From the NCBI GenBank assembly GCA_022841345.1, contig JALHRR010000011.1, forward strand, positions 62,001-126,000: 64,000 nt of DNA, in the 5' to 3' direction. The notes below the pieces were generated by a model that worked only from the letters and a program-made list of their open reading frames with translations, was not told the origin of the DNA and did not search any database. Below are positions 4,401-64,000 of the stretch, piece after piece. The DNA comes from Saprospiraceae bacterium (GTDB taxonomy: Bacteria > Bacteroidota > Bacteroidia > Chitinophagales > Saprospiraceae). Made by a program: the position numbers and the translations under genes. How positions within the stretch are numbered: position 1 is the stretch's first letter; each line of letters starts with the position of its first letter.

Positions 4401-7400
4401 TTAAAGCGCCTTAGCGGTCAAAACCCTGTTACTAAAGTTTGTTAAAGTTGCGCCATTTCCTCTCCAGTACCCATCGACCTTATGAACGCCAGGAGCTAGA
4501 TAGACTAGGGCAGGCCAGCTATAAAAGGCATCTATATTGGTTCCAGGACCAGAATTCACGCGCTCAGCTGAGAGAAAACCGTTAATAAATATAGCGGTTC
4601 CAGTTAAAGTGCCTGAACCGTTTCGGATATCAATATCCAATCTAATTTCAAACCATTCACCTGCAGATTTAATAGTTAAAGACATATCTGGGATTGGAAC
4701 GTATACAGAAGAAGAAGTAGAAGGAGTGGCCTGTACGCCTACTGCAATGCCTCTGAATTTTTGACTAGAAAGAGCGTCTTTTACTGGAGTGATCTTTCTA
4801 TTATCAGAGATAGCAGTAGATCCAACAGGTAAAGTATTCTGTAGATCAGCTACAAGCTCAGATTTACCAACATGAATTGGCATAATAATATCGAAAGCTT
4901 CAATGTTTAAAGACTGGCCAGCGTTATTGTTCAATACCCTGAATTTATATAAACCCAAAGGAAGGTTTCTAATAGCGATTCCACCTTCTACGGTTCCACC
5001 AGTGATTAAATTGGCGATACCAGTTGACGGAGTAAATCCAATACCGTAGTTAGACATAACAGCGGTTGGATAATTTGCAGTAGTTAAATTTACTAAAGAT
5101 CCACCAGTAGACAGGGATTGAAGTGACAATTGCGCGGACGTAGTAACGCCTGCTGCCTGACCCCTTGCTCTGTACTCGAATCCAGTTCCCCAGAAAGTGT
5201 ACTCAACGTAGGCATTTTGTCTGTCAGTATTTGGGATAAGTCCTGTTGGAGTACCATTTACATCAAAAGTAGCAGTCCAATCAACTGCTCCACCAGTTCC
5301 ATTTACGTAAATACCTTCTCTAGAGCTTGATTTTCTCATCACGCCAGTAGCGATTGTAAGAACGCCAGAAACAGTGTTAGCTACGTAATCGGCCATAATA
5401 TTATATGAGCCTAATTCTGTAGATCCAGAAGGAATGGAGGGTTTCTTAGGCTGATAAACAACAAATCTATTGATACCGATACCAGTACCAACTTGGTCCC
5501 TATTAAATCTAACAGTATGAGTTCCGTATGGTAAACCAGAAACAACTTTCAATTGTTTTAACTGATTCGCGATACCTGCAGCAGTTACCAAGATAGTTCC
5601 GATTGAAGTACCGTTCACAGATGTAGTAATAGTTCCAGAAGCTCCACCGTTATTTGTAGCAACAATATCCAAACCAGTACCAATGAAAGTGATGGTGGTG
5701 TAATCGCCAGATCCAACAGCAGCCAGTGTTTCACCGGCAGTATTTGCCAACGCAACGCTAGTAGTGCTCTGAAGAGTAGCGGTTCCGTCTTCTAAAGTAA
5801 AAGCTCTGCTAGAGCTAGAAGCTTGCAGTGTAGAAAAGTCATCTGATCTATTAGCGCCAAATTCTCTCCACATGTACACTCTTGAAACTTCTTCGTTAGC
5901 GTGATTTGCGGCAGTTAGGTTCAGTTGAGATCCAGCAGGATTTACTGCTTTACCAATAGTGCCGTCTGCTTTTTGGTAAACAACTACGTGTCCACCGCGA
6001 GTACCCAAAGTACCAGATTCAAAGGAAGAGTTATAGGCGATTGATTGCAGAGCAGAAAGAGAAAGTTTCTTTCCATTTGAATAAGACGCACCTGGGGTAA
6101 CTCGTAATCCAGAAGCTTCCGTTAAGATTTCAAATCCTGTAATACCAGTATTGCCGGTCGCATGGTATCTAAGTTTTACTGTATGAACACCAAGAGACAG
6201 ATTGGCAGCTACATTAATAGCTTGATTAGGTTTATAGTTTCTATTAAACAGAATCGCTGAAGTAGAAGCTCCAAGCAATACATTTGAACCTTCTGCTCCA
6301 CCGTCTACTGAAACACGAATATCGGTAGTATCAGATGCTAAAAAGAACAGTACATCAAGACCAGTACCGTAGAATGTGATTTCCATGAAATCGTTTACAT
6401 TTTGTCCGATTGCCCTGTCGTTACCGCTAGCAACGTAATTCCAGTTACCGGCGAACCTCATCTGACCAAAAAGATCGTTCAGGGTTCCAAACACTTGTTC
6501 GGTAGCAGGACCTACTTCATTTGGAATCAAGAATAGCTGTTGGATAGTCATACGTTCAGGACCCATTCTAACTTTAAGATCTTGAGAAAGATCTACGATA
6601 GCAGAACGTCCAGAAATAGTTGAATGAAACGTTCCACCAATAGGAGAACCAACGGTTGTGGTCGCATTCATTAATTGATTTTGAGCTACAAAAGCCTGGA
6701 AACCAACGCTTTGAATTTCTTGTAATGTGAAAACTGAATTAGAATTAGAAATAGAAGCATCAACAATTGCAGTTCTATAGAAAACTTCAACCGATAAATT
6801 GTAGCCACTGTAGTCTCTGTCCAATTTAATAACATTTGGACCTTCTTCAGTGAAGTAAGCGTCTGGAGTCAAAGTAACGTCGATAAATCTAGGGATCTTC
6901 TGACCGTTAATCCAAACTTCAACAGATGAAGCTGATGTTCCAGGTAATACTCCGACTGCAAAATTCCAGTTAAGAGTAAGAGCGGTTTTACCGCCCATTA
7001 AAGCAACAGTACAGTTAACTGGAGTTCCTACGCCATTTGTAAAGGCATAGGCAGAATTCATGATTCCGCCAGCTTGTGCTGAGTCTTGTTTTTGTAGAGA
7101 AGTTTTATATCTAAGAACGTTTACGATACCAGAACCAGAGGTTTTATTGGCATATAAACGAACATATAAAGCAGTGCCAGCAGCTTCTAAGAAAATACTA
7201 TCAATAGTATCAGTCTCAAGAGTAGGTCTAACTTTTACGTCAGTAAATGTAGTGCCATCATGGGAAGCATCAAATGCAACAACTGGAGCTACGTTAATAT
7301 CAAAGATATTATCGCCAGCTGCAGAAGTATCTTCATAGTCGAGTAAAATTTCAGAGAAAGGCTCTGCAGGGAAAGCGTCAGCAATAGAGTTACCGTCAAC

Positions 7401-17242: not shown

Positions 17243-19131
17243 TACTCACCCCAAATGATTGGATTTTCAGAATAAATGGTTCCCCATTTACCTAGTCCGA
17301 TATCGTTCGGATATAAAATTGTAAATACGATATTAATACCTGATGCAGCAATACTATTAATAAGATCTTGAGCATAAAGTCTTCCGCTAACTACGTCTGT
17401 CACATAGAAAGGATAGTCTAAGCCATCACGACTGATAGATGGAGAAGATTTCTCGCTTACTAGCGCAACATCTGTTCCATTCGCATGAAACTTCTTAATG
17501 TTATAAGCTGGACTAATAAGCAAAGTATTATTTGAAGGACGAGCGATATAAGGAACAGGACCTTCTTGGTCTTGAGTGCCGTATCCAAAGATTAAATTAC
17601 CTTGTTCGTCTGGGAACTGACTTGAATCAGCTACCGTGATTACTCTAGGCATAGAACCATCTAAATCTTGCTGCAATGTCGTGCCAATATTACTAACCGT
17701 AAATGGTTGAGTAATATCGTACATATAAGGACCTTCTTGATTAGGTAACAATGACATAATATCACCTAAAGGACCAGAAGCTTCAATTGCTGCAACACCA
17801 GAATACGTGCCGATTAAAGCCATAGAAAGGTCTGCTTGAAATACGTTTAATACTGTATTATTCGCATATGCTCTGACGCCAGAAAATGTGTTAATAGCAT
17901 CTGCCATATTCTGAACAGTTTCAGCTACAGTGGCTCCATTTGTAAAATTAGCGCCTGCTTGAACAGTAACTGTGCTAGAAATAACAAAGTTATCTCCACC
18001 ATTTGGCTGAGCATTCAAAGAATACGAAACATATGGAGGATCATGTAAATGTGCAGACCCAATTCGTCCACGTCGAATAACTTTCGTTGCGGCTGGCATG
18101 AAGATCTGTAACATTCTGGCAGTAGGCTGATAAACAGCCGCATACGAAAGTCTACTAGATAAAGTCTTACGAACTGGATTATAAAATAATACTGCGTCGT
18201 CTGTACCTTGAACAACAACGCCAGATGTGCCTAATGGATTAACAATTTCAAAGTAAGATACGGTTACTGGACCGCCAACGGCGTCAGTAATAGTGTAACT
18301 TCCTTCGTTAGTAGAAGCAGCGAAACCTCCACCGTAAATATTAACATAATCACCTTTGCTTAATTTACCGATCTGAGGATTTGCTCCTGCAGTCCATGTA
18401 AATCTGATAACTCCGCCAGGTTGTAAAGAGAGAGTCCATGTAGTTGACATATTGCCGCCAGCTGGAACTGGCTCATCAAATTTAAGTTCATTCTGTGCGC
18501 GACCACCCAAAACTGTGACGCTGGAAGCGGGACCAATAGAATCTGAAAGGATCTCTACGTATGGACCGTTACCGTCGTCTTTGGCAATTGCAGTACCAGT
18601 TAAACCTAAAGAACGTAAATATTTTGTAATAGCATCGGCAACTTCTTGTGCAGTTGCAGCTGCAATACTTTGGAAATCACCAGTCTTAAATTTGATTTCT
18701 ACAGTATTTTTACCGTCGAAATTCACTAAAAGGGTATCCCCATCTTGTAGATTGTACGGCTCAAAAGCTCTAGCTTGATTAGATGCGCGAACGAATTCGT
18801 CACCAAAAATGGCTTCTAAAAGGTTATTAATAAGATCTCGAACCTGTTTACGATTCTTAACCTCAATACCAATTTGTCTGAAAACATCGTCAGAAAGACC
18901 GACTGCAGGCGGACGAGTGATACCGTAAGTGGCTAACACTTCATCTAAGTATCTACCCTGTGCAGTGGCAATATAAAGTTGATCGTTCACAGCGCGAACA
19001 TTGTCGATCAAATAGGCGGCAGATCCTTGAGCCAAAGCAGTTAAAACCGCATCAACGGTTGGACCCTTCAGGTAAGGATTCAGATATGCTCTGAGTCTTT
19101 TATATTGCTGTTCTACTGTAGTTGTAGCCAT
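17242..19131 (-). CDS. Baseplate structural protein
   Basis: 629 residues starting MATTTVEQQYKRLRAYLNPYLKGPTVDAVL. The N-terminal 110 residues (ALAQGSAAYLIDNVRAVNDQLYIATAQGRYLDEVLATYGITRPP) look like the start of baseplate J-like wedge proteins: helix, then 'A-G-YLDE-A-YGI-R'. The remainder is beta-rich. It lies between the giant J-like gene and a tube-like gene, in a coupled operon. A wedge or inner-baseplate role is inferred. Confidence 0.65.
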   Translation of the reverse strand: MATTTVEQQYKRLRAYLNPYLKGPTVDAVLTALAQGSAAYLIDNVRAVNDQLYIATAQGRYLDEVLATYGITRPPAVGLSDDVFRQIGIEVKNRKQVRDLINNLLEAIFGDEFVRASNQARAFEPYNLQDGDTLLVNFDGKNTVEIKFKTGDFQSIAAATAQEVADAITKYLRSLGLTGTAIAKDDGNGPYVEILSDSIGPASSVTVLGGRAQNELKFDEPVPAGGNMSTTWTLSLQPGGVIRFTWTAGANPQIGKLSKGDYVNIYGGGFAASTNEGSYTITDAVGGPVTVSYFEIVNPLGTSGVVVQGTDDAVLFYNPVRKTLSSRLSYAAVYQPTARMLQIFMPAATKVIRRGRIGSAHLHDPPYVSYSLNAQPNGGDNFVISSTVTVQAGANFTNGATVAETVQNMADAINTFSGVRAYANNTVLNVFQADLSMALIGTYSGVAAIEASGPLGDIMSLLPNQEGPYMYDITQPFTVSNIGTTLQQDLDGSMPRVITVADSSQFPDEQGNLIFGYGTQDQEGPVPYIARPSNNTLLISPAYNIKKFHANGTDVALVSEKSSPSISRDGLDYPFYVTDVVSGRLYAQDLINSIAASGINIVFTILYPNDIGLGKWGTIYSENPIIWGE

Positions 19132-19134
19132 TTA

Positions 19135-22100
19135 TTATGTTCCGATCTGACTGACTGAAATATCCAGTACAGGATCAATAATTCTAGCTTTCTCACTAGG
19201 AGCAAGGAATATAAGATCATGAGTAGAATCGTACTGAGGAGAACTGATAGCCATTGCGCGTGTTCCAGGGATTGCATTAACTGCACTAACGATAGCACTG
19301 ATTGCAATTGGTTCACCTACAGGATTAGAGTTAACCAAAGATGAAACTGAAGTTCTAACTTGTTCCGCAGTTTGAGCGAATGGAACACCAGTATTGATGC
19401 GAACATCAATAGATACTTGAATTCTACGAGTCAGAGGCTCCTGCACAAAAATCTCTGCGCCTGCTGCGCCGACGCCAGGATAAGTTGTAGGATCTCTAGG
19501 ATCTCCATAAATGATACGATTAGCTTCTGCGATTAAGCCAGTATTATATCTGTAAGAATCCAATCCTTTTCTGATAGTTGTAGAGAAATCCATCTTATTA
19601 AGAGAATTGATCTGGACACCAGCTGATTCGTTGATCTTAGAGTATTGAGCATTAGTATCAAAAACTATAGTGCTTCTGCTTGGAGCACCAGTTTGTTGAG
19701 TAGAGAATAATACGTGTTTATATCCAGAGTAAGGAGTTCCTTCTTGAACATAAACAGAAGACTCTCTACCGTTCATGCTTACGTTGGTGACGCTAGCCAT
19801 AGTTCCGGTAACAACCACTGTTTCTTCATCAATTACTTCAGCGATAGTGTAGTTTCCTGCATTTTGCAATGTAAGAGTATCACCAGTCGCAACAAATAAA
19901 TCACCCGCAATAGTAGCTTCATATTCAGTAAATTGCATTTGAGGTCTATGAGCTTCTAATACTCCGCCAGTAACAAAGACAGCGCCTTCATTAACAGCTG
20001 AAGGATTAATTGCTTCAATGAAAGTTCTTCTACCTTGCTGAACAACATTTACTGTAAATGGTGCAGGCATATTTATATTAGTAGCATCGGTAGTTTCTTG
20101 AGAACCGATAGTAGTAACGGTAGTGACGTTTTCATCAGAAGAAGCATCTAAGCCAGTTGCTGCGCCAATAATAAGAGCTGCTTTTGCAGCAACTTGAACA
20201 TCGGTGTCACCAGAAAGAATCTGAACTTCAAGTCCAACTCTTCCACCAATTGCTGGATCAGAATTAGAAGTGTTCACATTAAACCATACATAGTAAAGAT
20301 TTACGTCACCGGCAGATTGAATGAAGAAATATTTGCCTGCGCCGCCGATAGTAAATTGAGAACCTGCTGGCATAACCAAATCAGTGATCTCTTGCAATTT
20401 TGCTCCAGATCTACGAACCATGAAATCACCTTGATTATCAGGATCGAAGTCGGTACCAAAAGTCATTACATCGCCCATGCGAGCATTTTCTAAAGATGGC
20501 TCAGTTCCAACGCCATTCCAGTTCAAGTAAATTGAATGGTTAGTAGCGTTTACCTGAAATGAAGTAGTTGCGTCAAAACCCAAAGAAACTGGATTGTAAG
20601 TCAATAATACTTCTTCTTCAGTAGTATTATCATTTTCATACCATACTGAATTGTTATAGCGTCTAATAACTCTGAAAGTACCCTGATTTAATACTGCAAA
20701 AGGAGCAGAAAGAACCATTGAGTCGCCTTCGGAAATTTCTGAAGATGCAGAGAAATCACCGGCAACAAAAGATGTACCGACAAGGAAAGCTCCACTTACA
20801 GTAACGGTACCAGTTCCTGCGTATGCTAAACTAATATTAGCAGAATGAGAAGTAGCAGTTACGGTAACGATATTACCGTTTGCTTCAGCGAAAACACCAG
20901 GCAACGTGCCGATGATTGCTGCTAAATTTGCTGCAGTATCAGCTGCGGTGCCGCCAATTGCAAAATCGGTATCCGCAATAAGGGCATTTCCACCGACCGT
21001 AAAAGTGTCGCCTGGAGATGAATTAGTTACAAGAGTATAGCTGCCAAAAGAAAACTGGTCAACAGCTTCTGGATTTAATACGCGAAGTGTTCTGCCATCA
21101 GACGATACTCCGGTTACTAAAAAAGTACCATTGTTTTCATCGTATGGCTGATTTTGAATAGTTACAAGATCGCCAATAGAAAGTTCGTTAAAATTTGCAT
21201 CGCCAGATAAGATAATATAGATAGCATCGTTTGTTCCGGTTACTTTGGCTACGTTTAAAGTGCCGCCGCCAGAATCATTGAAATTCAAAGAAGCTTTAAG
21301 GAAAGATGGAGTAGTTCCGATATTATTCCAGCTCAAACAAGCAAGAGATCCCTGTTTCTCGATACGGAATGTTTTGTTCCTAGAACGTACATGGTGTCGT
21401 GGTTTACCGAAATATCGTTGATTAAGAGCTTTTCCTAATAGTTTAACTGTAGACTGTCCAACCGATGGAGAATTGCCGATAACATCAATGCTTGTGTTAG
21501 AAGATACTAGAGTTTCTTTTCTTTGAGCAATTGAAGCCTGTAATCTGAACCATTGGTCAGAGTGGATACCTTGAGCAGATACACGATCAGTAGAAACACT
21601 CATAATAGAGTTATCAATTCTGATTGCAGAATCTAATACTGGAACCGCATAACCGTTAGCTAAGCCACCGATTATTTGAACTGAACCATCAGATCCTAAA
21701 ATATTCGTAGCTATCTCTAGGCGATTTCCGCGATCAACGACTCCAACAGACGCAACGGTAGTTAGGCCAGTAACGGCTAAAATATTAATTAAACGTCTTA
21801 CTTGATCCATAGTAGTCGGGATCAAACGAACTTCTTCAGCATTATTAAAAGCGTACCAAGCATCGCCAGGTCCGTCGCCAGAATAAGCTAATGGGACTTT
21901 GAATGTAAAATTAGGAGTACCAGCAAAGTTGTTTACTGCAATCCAATTAATACCGTCATAAAGATCGACAGCTTCATATGTAAAGCCGCTATCTTCGTAA
22001 GTAGACAATAGAATAATTCCAGAACCATCAGTTCCGCCATCGTTTGCGATAGTAGTAGTTACATAATCAGATAAACTTGCATTTACATAAGTATTAACTT

Positions 22101-53452: not shown

Positions 53453-53859
53453 TAATGATCCTTCTTTTTATCGCACACCTTACAATAGTCATAAATCGTG
53501 AATCCACTATCGTAAATAGCCCAATCGTGACCGTTTTTATCGCAATCACGCTTTTGTTCTTCTGGAGGACCCCATCTACCTATTTCTACTTGATGGCCGT
53601 CTTTGGGACTGTCTGGAAGCGTAGCAACATATGGACCGTTAGAAAGAATACCAGTCGGTAATTGACCAACTTGTGCAGCGATTTTTTCCCAAATATCATC
53701 TACATTATCTGCCATATAGCAGTGGACTTTATATGGGAAATGATCCCATCTAACGTAATATTCTTGCTCTTGCTGTATTGAATTGAAAGATACGGATTCT
53801 ATAAGGCCAGTTGCATCAGTTCCTTTTGCGCGAAACCTATCTCCTTTTTGAAAAGACAT
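53452..53859 (-). CDS. Hypothetical protein with C-terminal Cys pair (135 aa)
   Basis: Starts MSFQKGDRFRAKGTDATGLIESV, an SH3/Tudor-like small-barrel opening, and ends HDWAIYDSGFTIYDYCKVCDKKKDH, a CxxC-type zinc knuckle with upstream Cys. A GGAGGT site and a TTGACA-N17-TACCAT promoter precede it. Not assigned. Confidence 0.55.
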   Translation of the reverse strand: MSFQKGDRFRAKGTDATGLIESVSFNSIQQEQEYYVRWDHFPYKVHCYMADNVDDIWEKIAAQVGQLPTGILSNGPYVATLPDSPKDGHQVEIGRWGPPEEQKRDCDKNGHDWAIYDSGFTIYDYCKVCDKKKDH

Positions 53860-59848: not shown

Positions 59849-60315
59849 AACGTTTAAAGAGGCGAAATGTATATGTATATACGTTCTTATGCGTCTAAAT
59901 GTATGTATAATTTCTAAGTGCTTGTTTTTACTAAATTTTTTGGAAATTATTTTTTCGATTATGCATACATGAGGTTATACATAATTTTTTTGGGAATTTT
60001 TTGATAGAAACTCTATGTGTAATACTCCCAGACTTTACCTGCATATAGTATGCCAATCCCCGATAGCGACTAATCCCTAGAGATTCCGCACACTTAGACC
60101 ACATTCTCATTCTGGGATTCTCTTATTGATCCGTCTAATGTTTATAGTACACTGTCAACTATATACTATACATATCAATGGGATACGTCTAAGGCCTAGT
60201 CGGTTTGATTGAGTTACCAAAGGAGGTCAAGCAGTTAGGTCATTGACAGGTCCCTCTCTGCAAACATCGTGCCTTGTCTCATGCTGAGAATGTTTGACCT
60301 TTCTCATAATAGGGC

Positions 60316-60342
60316 TAAAGTTTTTACTCATTGCACCGATAA
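60316..60342 (+). promoter_or_regulatory. Sigma-28 (FliA)-type promoter 1
   Basis: TAAAGTTT (60316-60323), exactly 11 bases, then ACCGATAA (60335-60342). The E. coli FliA consensus is TAAAGTTT-N11-GCCGATAA; 15 of 16 box positions match. The start point near 60349 lies just before GGAGG of the gene at 60360. Confidence 0.85.
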
Positions 60343-60359
60343 GTCACATAGGAGGTCCT

Positions 60360-60518
60360 ATGAATGAACATAAGCAACGCCTTATTGACCTAGCTATTGA
60401 GGCTATAAAGCGAGACTTAGACAGTGGTGACGTGACGGCATTGGAGACACTATTAGAGTCGGTCCCTAACGCTTCACTTATAGCATTTTTACCAGAGGTG
60501 TCAGATGAGTCGAATTGA
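60360..60518 (+). CDS. Small hypothetical protein, first gene of plus-strand right block (52 aa)
   Basis: The ATG at 60360 has GGAGGTCCT just upstream. The product starts MNEHKQRLIDLAIEAIKRDLDSG and is helical and acidic (DVTALETLLESVPNASLIAFLPEVSDESN). Driven by sigma-28-type promoter 1. Not recognised; possibly a host-takeover factor by position. Confidence 0.65.
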   Translation: MNEHKQRLIDLAIEAIKRDLDSGDVTALETLLESVPNASLIAFLPEVSDESN

Positions 60519-60645
60519 GACGTTCTCACTATTAGCCATTGTCTTAGTTATGGTCATTCTGTTCTATATGACCTTTGACGCATTAGGCAGTTTTGGGCCA
60601 GTATTGAGGCAGGCCATAGAGCAACTACAGGATGTGCCAAAATGA
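60505..60645 (+). CDS. Single-span membrane peptide (46 aa)
   Basis: ATG at 60505 after GAGGTG, inside the end of the previous gene. MSRIETFSLLAIVLVMVILFYMTFDALG gives one membrane span after a short N-terminus, then a polar tail. Overlaps the next small frame by ATGA. Envelope function inferred. Confidence 0.55.
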   Translation: MSRIETFSLLAIVLVMVILFYMTFDALGSFGPVLRQAIEQLQDVPK

Positions 60646-60719
60646 GACATATCGACCTATCTCTATTTTTTACTGTCTCATTGTGGGTCACTAGGGCTTT
60701 ACATATTATTTTGCAATAA
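60642..60719 (+). CDS. Tiny hydrophobic peptide (25 aa)
   Basis: ATGA overlap with the upstream gene; product MRHIDLSLFFTVSLWVTRALHIILQ is hydrophobic. At 25 residues it could be chance, but the overlap and composition make it plausible. Confidence 0.3.
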   Translation: MRHIDLSLFFTVSLWVTRALHIILQ

Positions 60720-60738
60720 CCGTACCAAAGGAGAAGTT

Positions 60739-60900
60739 ATGAATAGGCAGGTTATTAAAACGAGACTTAAGTCCTTAGAGGCTAAAGCTAAATATAGAGA
60801 CCAAGTTATGTCTCAGGATAGGACAATTATTAAAATGACCTATTCTGCTATAGACTCTATTTTTATTGTATATAGGTGTCACTCGGTGCCACGCTTATAA
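60739..60900 (+). CDS. Small basic protein (53 aa)
   Basis: ATG at 60739 after AAAGGAGAAGTT, a strong ribosome site. Starts MNRQVIKTRLKSLEAKAKYRDQVM, basic and helical. Its stop overlaps the palindrome GCTTATAAGC (60893-60902). Not recognised. Confidence 0.6.
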   Translation: MNRQVIKTRLKSLEAKAKYRDQVMSQDRTIIKMTYSAIDSIFIVYRCHSVPRL

Positions 60901-61240
60901 GCCTATGATTTTGTTAGGTTTTGGAGTATGGTCACTAAGTTAGGTCACTTTGGCATAGACCTTGCATGGTCGCATCGTCTCATTTTGACGCACGAATAGC
61001 CGTGGGGTTGACCACAGCTCATTTTGAGACAGGTCATCAAAAATGTGGCGCGTAAAAACGTGCTTTTTGACCTATCTCAATAGACCTAGCTGACTAGACT
61101 AAGCCTGTATTATGGACTAAATAGCTTCACATTATGACCATAATCAGTGACCTAACTATGTGATAACACTCAGCTTTTAGCTTATATTTAAGCCCTAATA
61201 ATTGCTTATTATGGTCCTAATACGTCTTTTATAGATACGC

Positions 61241-61315
61241 TTTGACCTCAATTAGTCTTGTCGTATCCTGACAGTCATCCTTATAGTGGCATGGACCTTT
61301 GACCTCAATTAGTCT
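61241..61315 (+). repeat. Direct repeat TTTGACCTCAATTAGTCT, two copies
   Basis: Identical 18-base copies at 61241-61258 and 61298-61315, 57 bases apart; the preceding base (C) is also the same in both. Non-coding. Possible regulatory site. Confidence 0.6.
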
Positions 61316-61538
61316 AGTGTCTCAATATGAGCCGCAGTTAGCTCTATTGTCCTGTATTGATAAGATTGTATCAAGTTGAGTCATTATGCCTAATGCTTAT
61401 TTAGAAGGGCTTTAAGAGCGTTTTAGACAGATAAGGCTCATTTTAAGATGTATTAAAGAAGGACTGCCTCACTTTGATCGGGGGGTTGAACCATTATGAG
61501 ACAGCCCTTTGGGGGTTTTAAAAAGCCCTGTTCGCAAC

Positions 61539-61553
61539 GTCTCAGGGTGAGAC
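61539..61553. repeat. GTCTCA/TGAGAC inverted repeat
   Basis: Perfect 6-bp arms with a GGG loop. The arms are the same word (TGAGAC) that is over-represented across the right-hand block, which suggests that it may be a site for a protein or nucleic-acid structure. Confidence 0.5.
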
Positions 61554-61927
61554 TCCCTATTATGCATAGGTCAGCTTGTTTTGCTTGCTTCTAGCCATAT
61601 CATTATGAGACTTCTAACTAACCGCTATGCGTCCGGTTTACTTCGTCTCTAACTTAAAGCTAGTCACTATTTCATTCCCGTTAGCCTGTTATATTAGTCT
61701 ATTGCATTTTTAGGGCCATAGTTAAGTTGCTGATTTTACTACTGAGGTCTTATTTTAGTACGTCGATCTTTTAGTCAACTATTCACTATTTTGGACTATT
61801 CACTATAAATTGAATAGCTTAGATAGGTGTCGAACTACTAGTCAGGTGTTAGATTTATAACACTTAGGGACCAAAACAAAGCTTAAGTCTTATAAATGTA
61901 CTATTATGAGATTCTGCTATTTTTACC

Positions 61928-61954
61928 TAAAGTTCTTTTTAAGGACGCCGATAG
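61928..61954 (+). promoter_or_regulatory. Sigma-28 (FliA)-type promoter 2
   Basis: TAAAGTTC (61928-61935), 11 bases, GCCGATAG (61947-61954): 14 of 16 box positions match the FliA consensus. It precedes GGAGG and the ATG at 61974 with a start near 61961. Confidence 0.82.
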
Positions 61955-61973
61955 GTTATATATTGGAGGCATT

Positions 61974-62492
61974 ATGAGTGAAATTAAAACGCATCCTTTT
62001 CAGAGGACTCTAGGACTAGGACCTTATAAGCTTGTCGGGTTTTTCGCATTAGTTTTGCCTAGCGAGTCTAACCAAGGCCGAAATAACTTTCACCTAGCGC
62101 CAAAGGTTGAACGTGGAATAGGGACTTGTGCCCATTGCAGTCATGCTATAACTAACATTTATATTGTCCAGATAGGTGATGGGCGTCGTTTTGGCGTCGG
62201 TTGTGACTGTATTCTAAAGGTCGATATGCCTGTTAGTGAATTGTCTAAGCTTAAGAAAATAGAACGTGAACAGGCTAAAATTAAGCGTGCTAACTTAAAG
62301 GCCAAAAAAGGTCTAGCAGCGCGTAACGAATTGAGACAGCTTATGGAATCTCATTCTGATTCAATGAAGCTACTGTCTTATAATGAGAATAGATCACTGT
62401 ACCAATATGCGACGTTTTGCTTAGACCGATCTAGTGACGGCGGCATACTAATTGCATTAAACAAAGTCAAAAAGATGCTGGAGGCCATATGA
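61974..62492 (+). CDS. Conserved zinc-knuckle protein, CxxC...GCDC family (172 aa)
   Basis: The ATG at 61974 follows GGAGGCATT; upstream in-frame codons have no ribosome site. GTCAHCSHAITNIYIVQIGDGRRFGVGCDCI (about residues 49-79) holds CxxC and GCDC knuckles of a family met on phages and plasmids, with unknown role ('DGR-FGVGCDC' signature). The rest is a basic, helical region (REQAKIKRANLKAKKG). Driven by sigma-28-type promoter 2. Stop overlaps the next gene (ATGA). Confidence 0.7.
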   Translation: MSEIKTHPFQRTLGLGPYKLVGFFALVLPSESNQGRNNFHLAPKVERGIGTCAHCSHAITNIYIVQIGDGRRFGVGCDCILKVDMPVSELSKLKKIEREQAKIKRANLKAKKGLAARNELRQLMESHSDSMKLLSYNENRSLYQYATFCLDRSSDGGILIALNKVKKMLEAI

Positions 62493-62707
62493 CACTGCAA
62501 AACATTCGAGACGCTAAAACCTTTGACGAATTAAAACCCGCTATTAAGCTATTATGCGACAAAATGCAAATAATGACCTATGGCGAGTTTACAGCTTATA
62601 AAAGAACACTAGAGAGTCAGGCCGTCAAGGTCGGTTCAAGTGTTAAGGCTCTAAATGATTATGCCGAGCAATACCAAGTGTATGGTTATGAGACAAACAA
62701 AGCTTAG
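62489..62707 (+). CDS. Hypothetical helical protein (72 aa)
   Basis: ATG at 62489 after GGAGGCCAT and coupled by ATGA to the zinc-knuckle gene. Starts MTLQNIRDAKTFDELKPAIKLL. Helical; no motif recognised. Confidence 0.6.
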   Translation: MTLQNIRDAKTFDELKPAIKLLCDKMQIMTYGEFTAYKRTLESQAVKVGSSVKALNDYAEQYQVYGYETNKA

Positions 62708-62715
62708 GAGGCTAT

Positions 62716-62844
62716 ATGACTCAATATAAGACAGTTGACACTAGCACGCTAAAAGGTTTGAAACTAGCTGAAACGCTTAAAGCCAAAGGCTGGACTATCT
62801 ATAGAACTGGCCTATTTTTGATTTATTTTATTAAAAAGTCCTAA
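62716..62844 (+). CDS. Small protein with hydrophobic C-terminus (42 aa)
   Basis: ATG at 62716 after GGAGGCTAT. Starts MTQYKTVDTSTLKGLKLAETLK and ends in a hydrophobic run (GLFLIYFIKKS). Its stop codon overlaps the -35 box of promoter 3. Confidence 0.55.
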   Translation: MTQYKTVDTSTLKGLKLAETLKAKGWTIYRTGLFLIYFIKKS

Positions 62845-62868
62845 AGTTTTGCAAAATAGTCCCGATAA
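62842..62868 (+). promoter_or_regulatory. Sigma-28 (FliA)-type promoter 3
   Basis: TAAAGTTT (62842-62849), 11 bases, CCCGATAA (62861-62868): 15 of 16 match the FliA boxes. It precedes GGAGG and the ATG at 62887; expected start near 62875. Confidence 0.85.
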
Positions 62869-62886
62869 GTATTATATGGAGGTTAT

Positions 62887-63057
62887 ATGAAGACAGAACG
62901 AATTAAAAAGCTTATATCTGGTCAAATGAATGTCCCTTATATTATTTGCAAGGTCGGTTATGCCGAGGGCTCTAACAAGCCTAAGCGCGTGGTGACGCCT
63001 AAGCCTTTCAATCCAGTTATCAAATTGAGACGCTCTGAACTTAAAAAGGTGGCTTAA
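62887..63057 (+). CDS. Small basic protein (56 aa)
   Basis: ATG at 62887 with GGAGGTTAT upstream. Starts MKTERIKKLISGQMNVPYIICKVGY, then a Lys/Arg-rich and Pro-containing tail. First gene behind promoter 3. Not recognised. Confidence 0.6.
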   Translation: MKTERIKKLISGQMNVPYIICKVGYAEGSNKPKRVVTPKPFNPVIKLRRSELKKVA

Positions 63058-63058
63058 T

Positions 63059-63337
63059 ATGAAACATATCAAAATGAAACATTATTCCGATGACTCTCAT
63101 GGCTGGATTGCAATTAAGCGTTCCATTTTGGAACAGTTGGGCCTATTGGACAAAATTAGTGCCTATTCGTATCAAAGCAAGACAGGCCAGACTGTCTATT
63201 TAGAAGAAGACAGCGACGCCTCAAAATTGGTCAACGCTTTAGATGCTAAGGGCTTAGTGTACCAAAATGAGTCGGTTCGCCATGATGGTCAGTCTTGGAT
63301 TAGATCATTGCCTCGTTTTGAGACAAAGGTGGCCTAA
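63059..63337 (+). CDS. Hypothetical protein (92 aa)
   Basis: Starts MKHIKMKHYSDDSHGWIAIKRS with AGGTGG upstream. Mixed alpha/beta: SILEQLGLLDKISAYSYQSKTGQTVYLEEDSDASKLVNAL. The pattern resembles small phage proteins of unknown role. Overlaps the next gene as TAATG. Confidence 0.55.
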   Translation: MKHIKMKHYSDDSHGWIAIKRSILEQLGLLDKISAYSYQSKTGQTVYLEEDSDASKLVNALDAKGLVYQNESVRHDGQSWIRSLPRFETKVA

Positions 63338-63513
63338 TGAAAGTCGAATTTTATAACATATCATGGGAAACTGACGGCCATAGAGTCAAGTTGCCTAAAA
63401 AGATAGTGCTAGACGTTGACAGTGACTTAGACGTGTCACTTGACGGCGCTGACGTATTGTCTGACAATTTTGGTTATTTAGTGAATAGTTTTAGTTTTAA
63501 AATCATAACATAG
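63337..63513 (+). CDS. Small acidic beta-rich protein (58 aa)
   Basis: Starts MKVEFYNISWETDGHRVKLPKK, then a very acidic stretch (VLDVDSDLDVSLDGADVLSDN). All Asp codons are GAC, unlike most genes on the left. Coupled by TAATG to the previous gene. Not recognised. Confidence 0.55.
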   Translation: MKVEFYNISWETDGHRVKLPKKIVLDVDSDLDVSLDGADVLSDNFGYLVNSFSFKIIT

Positions 63514-63521
63514 GAGACAAA

Positions 63522-63908
63522 ATGAAAGTCATCAAAGCTTATCCGATTGAGTTAGCTATTAAGGGAATGCAAAAACGTGCCATTGTATCTATTGAGGTCG
63601 AAAATGAGACAGATATTGATTTCTCATATTGGGACAAAAAGACTGCAAAACATACTCAAAAAGACCTAGACAGTGGCAAGGTCATTTGTCTATGGGTTTT
63701 AGTTCGCATAGGTTTTTCAGGCCTTGACGGTTTTGAGGGCGTTGACTCTCTAGGTCAAGTTTTTGTTAGGCCGTCTAGTATTGAGACAGACGTTTTTCAG
63801 ACTGTCAATGACCATGGTATGATTGACAATGCTAGCAGTGACCTAATTGAACAGGTCTTGAAAGGCGTTGACAAGCTGAATGAGTTTTTAAGTCAAAAAT
63901 CAGCATAG
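63522..63908 (+). CDS. Hypothetical protein (128 aa)
   Basis: Starts MKVIKAYPIELAIKGMQKRAIV after TAGGAGACAAA. Two parts: N-terminal beta and a helical C-terminus (SSDLIEQVLKGVDKLNEFLSQKSA). No Cys. Initiation module CATAGGAGACAAAATGAA is the same as that before the next gene. Not recognised. Confidence 0.55.
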   Translation: MKVIKAYPIELAIKGMQKRAIVSIEVENETDIDFSYWDKKTAKHTQKDLDSGKVICLWVLVRIGFSGLDGFEGVDSLGQVFVRPSSIETDVFQTVNDHGMIDNASSDLIEQVLKGVDKLNEFLSQKSA

Positions 63909-63916
63909 GAGACAAA

Positions 63917-64000
63917 ATGAATACATTTTTAAAACAAGGTGACTTAGTTAAGTATCATAATGAAACACCAGAGCTAAACTCTCTAGGTTTTGTTTTAGGT
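63917..64000 (+). CDS. Partial hypothetical protein at right edge
   Basis: 28 codons are visible: ATG at 63917 after AGGAGACAAA; begins MNTFLKQGDLVKYHNETPEL, which could be a small barrel opening. Runs off the window. Confidence 0.55.
   Translation, partial: MNTFLKQGDLVKYHNETPELNSLGFVLG

Follow-up and report, generated by a model that had tools for sequence, protein, structure and literature searches.

The DNA analyzed here, a window of 64,000 nucleotides, comprises bases 62001–126000 of the 129,404-base phage contig C11, part of a draft genome; the contig extends 3.4 kb beyond the window. C11 carries the gene set of a large myovirus-like phage, including genes for a portal, a terminase, a DNA polymerase, GroEL, NAMPT, RNR, an RNA ligase, and a baseplate. 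The nearest named phage by portal search is Myxococcus phage Mx1 (OR576727), at 45–48% identity. Most of the proteins they share are ~30–45% identical, and the RNR subunits reach 66–80%. The two phages have in common GroEL, NAMPT, DNA polymerase III alpha, an SbcC-like endonuclease, RNR, a sigma-like gene, a terminase, and a baseplate. Specifically, the shared portal, terminase, DNA polymerase, baseplate, GroEL, and sigma-like genes place C11 in an Mx1-like myovirus clade. Judged by its genes, C11 is a large myovirus and a distant relative of Mx1. At the DNA level, its similarity to named phages is confined to a tRNA-Ala gene. At least 204 relatives are recognizable by portal in IMG/VR, and since relatives reach 170 kb, C11 is probably incomplete.

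Toward the right-hand end of the window, short plus-strand open reading frames (ORFs) follow candidate promoters of the sigma-28 (FliA) type. In E. coli and Salmonella, TAAAGTTT and GCCGATAA separated by an 11-bp spacer form the consensus of the FliA-dependent class 3 flagellar promoters. Sites were modeled as TAAAGTTT-N11-GCCGATAA, with 16 box bases. Promoter 1 (60316–60342, plus strand) reads TAAAGTTT-N11-ACCGATAA and matches 15 of 16 box bases, promoter 2 (61928–61954, plus strand) reads TAAAGTTC-N11-GCCGATAG and matches 14, and promoter 3 (62842–62868, plus strand) reads TAAAGTTT-N11-CCCGATAA and matches 15, corresponding to one, two, and one mismatches. In each case, AGGAGG or GGAGG follows, and then an ATG (60360, 61974, and 62887) 17–19 nt past the -10 box. 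Thus, three sites of 14–15 matching bases with a spacer of exactly 11, each followed by GGAGG and ATG, are present as the original prediction described them. Its further claim, that neither strand of the window contains another such pair, holds at spacer 11 with up to two mismatches. Pairs with three mismatches do occur on the minus strand of the window, at 53705 and 57255, which is the chance level.

Two additional sites lie beyond the window end on the same strand, at 64281 (a perfect 16 of 16) and 65212 (15 of 16) in window coordinates. All five C11 sites are therefore on the plus strand, inside 5 kb, with 14–16 of 16 box bases and a spacer of 11. The perfect site at 64281 is without a clear Shine–Dalgarno sequence and start codon downstream, and the site at 65212 falls inside an upstream gene, in the conserved end of that gene. 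Across the whole 129-kb contig, no sixth site with two or fewer mismatches exists at spacer 11, and none is added at spacers 8–16; a scan of spacers 6–18 returned, besides the five sites at 11, a single match, at 18. Third-order Markov simulations of the window yield 0.12 sites with up to two mismatches (maximum 1 in 200 simulations), compared with the three observed, and none with up to one mismatch, compared with two observed. The structural genes of C11 are without FliA-type sites.

The genes behind these sites, all on the plus strand, are small. Promoter 1 precedes a 52-aa ORF (60360–60518; AGGAGG, with the ATG 17 nt past the -10 box) that belongs to no Pfam or PHROG family. A 46-aa ORF (60505–60645) overlaps its end, and a 53-aa ORF (60739–60900) is probably on the same transcript. 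The next ~1 kb (60901–61895), up to promoter 2, harbors no convincing ORF and contains many short repeats (TGAGAC, TAGGTCA). Promoter 2 precedes a 172-aa ORF (61974–62492), a 72-aa ORF (62489–62707) that overlaps it by 4 nt, and a 42-aa ORF (62716–62844) whose end coincides with the start of promoter 3. Promoter 3 precedes a 56-aa ORF (62887–63057), followed by ORFs of 92 aa (63059–63337), 58 aa (63337–63513), and 128 aa (63522–63908) that probably belong to its operon. Pfam searches with ten early ORFs revealed no function and no FlgM-like protein. The 172-aa ORF has a homolog, 42% identical, in phage contig G004, where a FliA-type promoter (1139) lies directly upstream. The 128-aa ORF has a 35% identical homolog in phage contig G027, whose first 5 kb hold five FliA-type sites. 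Past the window end, the same module includes a lysozyme/transglycosylase-like ORF (64679–65242; contig 126679–127242); its start resembles a membrane anchor, and homologs exist in contigs G013 and G018.

The module also contains a palindrome array. In the final 9.4 kb of C11, there are 21 occurrences of the heptamer TGAGACA, where 1.0 would be expected. It is half of a 17-bp palindrome, TGTCTCA-N3-TGAGACA, for which a spacer of 3 is clearly preferred. The in-window part of the array spans 60267–64000, and the array runs on to contig base 129404. With up to 4 mismatches in 14, contig bases 120001–129404 contain 52 copies versus ~5 per 10 kb elsewhere. Both strands carry copies; of the closest ones, none coincides with a promoter. 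Similar arrays occupy site-rich stretches of other phage contigs: 99 copies in G005 (80–100 kb) and 83 in G012 (60–70 kb), where most of the FliA-type sites of these two contigs are located, and 31 copies together with three sites in the 4 kb of contig piece L082. An exact palindrome scan of IMG/VR, in the loci examined, revealed no array outside contigs with FliA-type sites. A natural guess is that the array binds a predicted DNA-binding protein that silences or organizes the module.

FliA-type sites recur among other phages. In IMG/VR, the 16-base pattern is present in at least 120 stretches, with several contigs carrying two or three among the matches listed, whereas the reversed pattern, used as a control, is present in 29 and never twice on a contig. 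An 18-base version matches 63 stretches. Whole-record searches located sites on all 17 pattern-bearing IMG/VR contigs investigated and none on Mx1, which in this respect differs from C11; Myxococcus, the genus of the Mx1 host, is not known to have flagella. Divergent phage contigs carry 2–15 sites each. Fourteen full or nearly full contigs, consisting of C11 and 13 others chosen for at least one exact motif match, together hold 82 sites at spacer 11, 13 at spacer 12, and few elsewhere, compared with ~0.1 site per contig when the boxes are permuted. Conservation extends to bases outside the searched boxes: a C precedes the -35 box at 67 of the 82 sites, and a T follows it at 72. The initial scan pattern already included the G after the -10 box. 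A Shine–Dalgarno sequence and start codon lie within 60 nt of 60 of the 82 sites (64281 being an exception) versus 11% of random positions.

The genes downstream of these sites form ten groups of homologs, eight joining different phages and two lying within one contig. An rIIA-like protein, 57–72% identical among its copies, is encoded behind sites in three phages, and the same three have an rIIB-like protein behind sites. PHROG matches for the genes behind sites are to rIIA, rIIB, RNA ligase, and phosphatase. From these assignments in relatives, together with the cluster of tiny ORFs on C11, we infer that the C11 sites drive early gene expression; the rII genes of T4 are early. For the 65212 site, recurrence in G013 and G018 may be driven by coding, given its overlap with the conserved terminal part of the gene upstream. 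On sequence evidence, the FliA-type sites represent a genuine class of phage promoter that is conserved. The original assignment of sigma-28-type promoters to the right-hand plus-strand genes is well supported by how the sites are spaced, placed, and clustered and by their conservation in other phages. A large, largely undescribed phage group bears flagellar-sigma-type promoters before early-looking genes, which hints that infection is coupled to motile or attack-phase cells.

To what extent close relatives share the trait is visible in 21 portal-relatives picked blind to the motif. Clusters occur in only two, G027 and G021 (three sites near the end, five with a looser box); G018 and G029 have single sites, and the remainder have zero by the same criterion. 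Thus, the distribution of the trait is patchy, even between closely related phages. The promoter class shifts among relatives whose core genes are ~50–80% identical, as expected if the class follows the host.

With respect to the polymerase that reads the sites, the original prediction named the host's motility sigma factor or a phage-made relative; the evidence favors the host factor and renders the phage-made one unlikely. In a search covering the 129,404 bases of C11, a probably incomplete contig, no Pfam match to sigma region 2 or region 4 emerged, and a protein with both regions is found neither on C11 nor on 20 related records, many of them fragments. C11 does encode a divergent sigma-like protein (contig 19303–20382, outside the window) that is 35% identical to the annotated sigma factor of Mx1. 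A 74% identical IMG/VR homolog was modeled (mean pLDDT 81), and its structure can be aligned with sigma-70/A chains at borderline E-values, the best being 1.1e-3. The protein is conserved through the Mx1-like clade, and 34 of 35 homologs terminate at the point where region 4 would start, in a motif such as LPLLHRKVLRLKGIKL. Stopping there, the protein appears to be devoid of the -35-reading helix and thus should not read the -35 box. Moreover, Mx1 and site-less relatives carry the gene, and it is undetected by homology in G005, G012, and G002, each of which has many sites. This sigma-like protein is perhaps a late factor, analogous to T4 gp55 or SPO1 gp34. Given this truncation and the occurrence of the gene in Mx1 and other site-less phages, host FliA is the simplest reader, and we regard it as the best candidate for the C11 sites.

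The alternative is that a phage-made sigma or specificity factor mimics FliA, in which case the sites would serve as middle or late promoters with no dependence on the motility of the host. The conservation and sigma-like fold of the C11 protein are compatible with such a factor, as are the small proteins with a region-4-like helix-turn-helix encoded by G005 and G012. However, the truncation at region 4, the distribution of the gene, the lack of a full sigma-70-family protein on any of the 20 records (many being fragments), and the site-free structural genes of C11 all argue against it, and we judge it improbable. Far more improbable is that the sites are chance matches, or copies of a recently duplicated repeat, with no promoter function. 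AT-rich DNA does raise the frequency of such strings, and the 62842 and 64281 sites have some downstream sequence in common. Yet, the spacer sequences differ in all five C11 copies, the null expectation is 0.12, and divergent phages show these boxes at this spacing and in this position, with dissimilar sequence in between. We reject chance on the basis of the simulations, the permuted boxes, and the reversed pattern, and recent duplication on the basis of the differing spacers and the recurrence in divergent phages.

The identity of the host bears on the reading by host FliA. The assembly bin that holds C11 (G000) encodes no FliA above the cut-off, and its RpoD proteins are, as we take it from their sequence, of the Bacteroidota type. 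The strong Shine–Dalgarno sequences of C11 do not fit a Bacteroidota host, so C11 is likely mis-binned. Contig C62 of the same bin, which resembles another phage, contains a partial sigma-like stretch (19106–19390) within a 526-aa protein. A portal scan of named genomes revealed nothing; scanning 84,980 named genomes with the baseplate revealed one relative, in a Bdellovibrionales metagenome-assembled genome (MAG). When 369 genomes of the phylum were searched at the protein level, a relative was again found in one, the same MAG. For FliA, this MAG yields a truncated match of 184 bits, and it contains no site with one or fewer mismatches. Across 55 genomes of its order, 254 FliA-type sites are present, and the reversed control gives 101. 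TCAAG and TTAAG, both common forms in this order, also appear at several of the phage sites. In Bdellovibrio, 92 of 140 attack-phase promoters carry the FliA motif TTAAG-N16-CCGATA, which is used for a broad regulon (PMC3627812). The text of that study does not mention “phage”; the motif resembles that of C11, and the difference is that the Bdellovibrio bacteriovorus promoters are chromosomal.

Given the MAG relative, the Bdellovibrio motif, and the order-wide excess of sites, a predatory, motile host is reasonable and far from proven. It is plausible that the C11 host is predatory and that C11 infection is tuned to motile cells. A narrower form of the FliA explanation, to which we give tentative credence, is that phages have acquired these promoters as an adaptation to Bdellovibrionota predators, with early genes read in attack-phase cells, where FliA governs most attack-phase promoters. 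The sole relative in named genomes, the truncated FliA hit in the MAG that holds it, the attack-phase motif (PMC3627812), and the TCAAG and TTAAG forms favor this idea. Conversely, one MAG contig, in one of 369 phylum genomes, is weak evidence for a host, the MAG is devoid of close sites, C11 resides in a Bacteroidota-like bin, and the TCAAG and TTAAG forms are not peculiar to predators.

We consider it probable, with fairly high confidence, that the C11 sites are working sigma-28 promoters of small early genes used for host take-over, most likely read by host FliA. The analysis establishes the sites, their statistics, their position ahead of genes, and their conservation among phages; initiation of transcription, reading by host FliA, and early action are what we infer. 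Upon DNA entry, TAAAGTTT-N11-GCCGATAA would be read by host FliA–RNA polymerase, of which a swimming or attack-phase cell would already have an ample supply. By analogy with known promoters, transcription would start ~7 bases past the -10 box, and the leaders would comprise little beyond the Shine–Dalgarno sequence. Later genes would probably be expressed by another route, perhaps involving the phage sigma-like protein (contig 19303–20382). More speculatively, and with some doubt on our part, a widespread set of phages of predatory Bdellovibrio-like bacteria may write their early program for the attack-phase sigma-28, starting only in the swimming hunter stage, with a protein that binds the palindrome array organizing or shutting off the module in some of them.

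Phages usually begin with the housekeeping sigma factor. In SPO1-like and T4-like phages, host polymerase reads an early cluster of small genes before phage factors act; C11 has a comparable cluster, with the motility sigma class in place of the housekeeping one. Relative to the class 3 promoters of E. coli and Salmonella, the boxes and the 11-bp spacer are alike, but the C11 sites are on a phage, before small genes of no assigned function, and the sites of other phages precede rIIA, rIIB, RNA ligase, and phosphatase genes and no flagellar genes. In the literature searched, with subscription journals outside it, we found no earlier case of phage early genes under a motility sigma factor. Writing early genes for such a factor would tie infection to cell state, that is, swimming or attack phase, by transcription rather than by receptor binding. 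FliA-type sites could also help to assign hosts to uncultured phages.

Other promoter-like patterns exist among these phages. In G018, whose portal is 80% identical to that of C11, TTGACT-17-TATAAT lies at ~5510–5538, near the homolog of the transglycosylase-like gene; it is possible that this represents a promoter swap relative to C11. Scanning for a sigma-70 pattern gave 56 matches in G018, not above the 52.9 in shuffled sequence, and 32 in C11, modestly above 20.3, so the scan carries little weight. In G019 (IMG/VR 3300020057_000029), ~10 sites among repeats combine the FliA -10 box CCGATAA with another -35 region, mostly CCTGACTG. Finally, G007 (IMG/VR 3300023440_000002) contains, at ~45–58 kb, dense repeats of GCAGGTT and TTCCA-N15-ATTGG on both strands amid its FliA-type sites.
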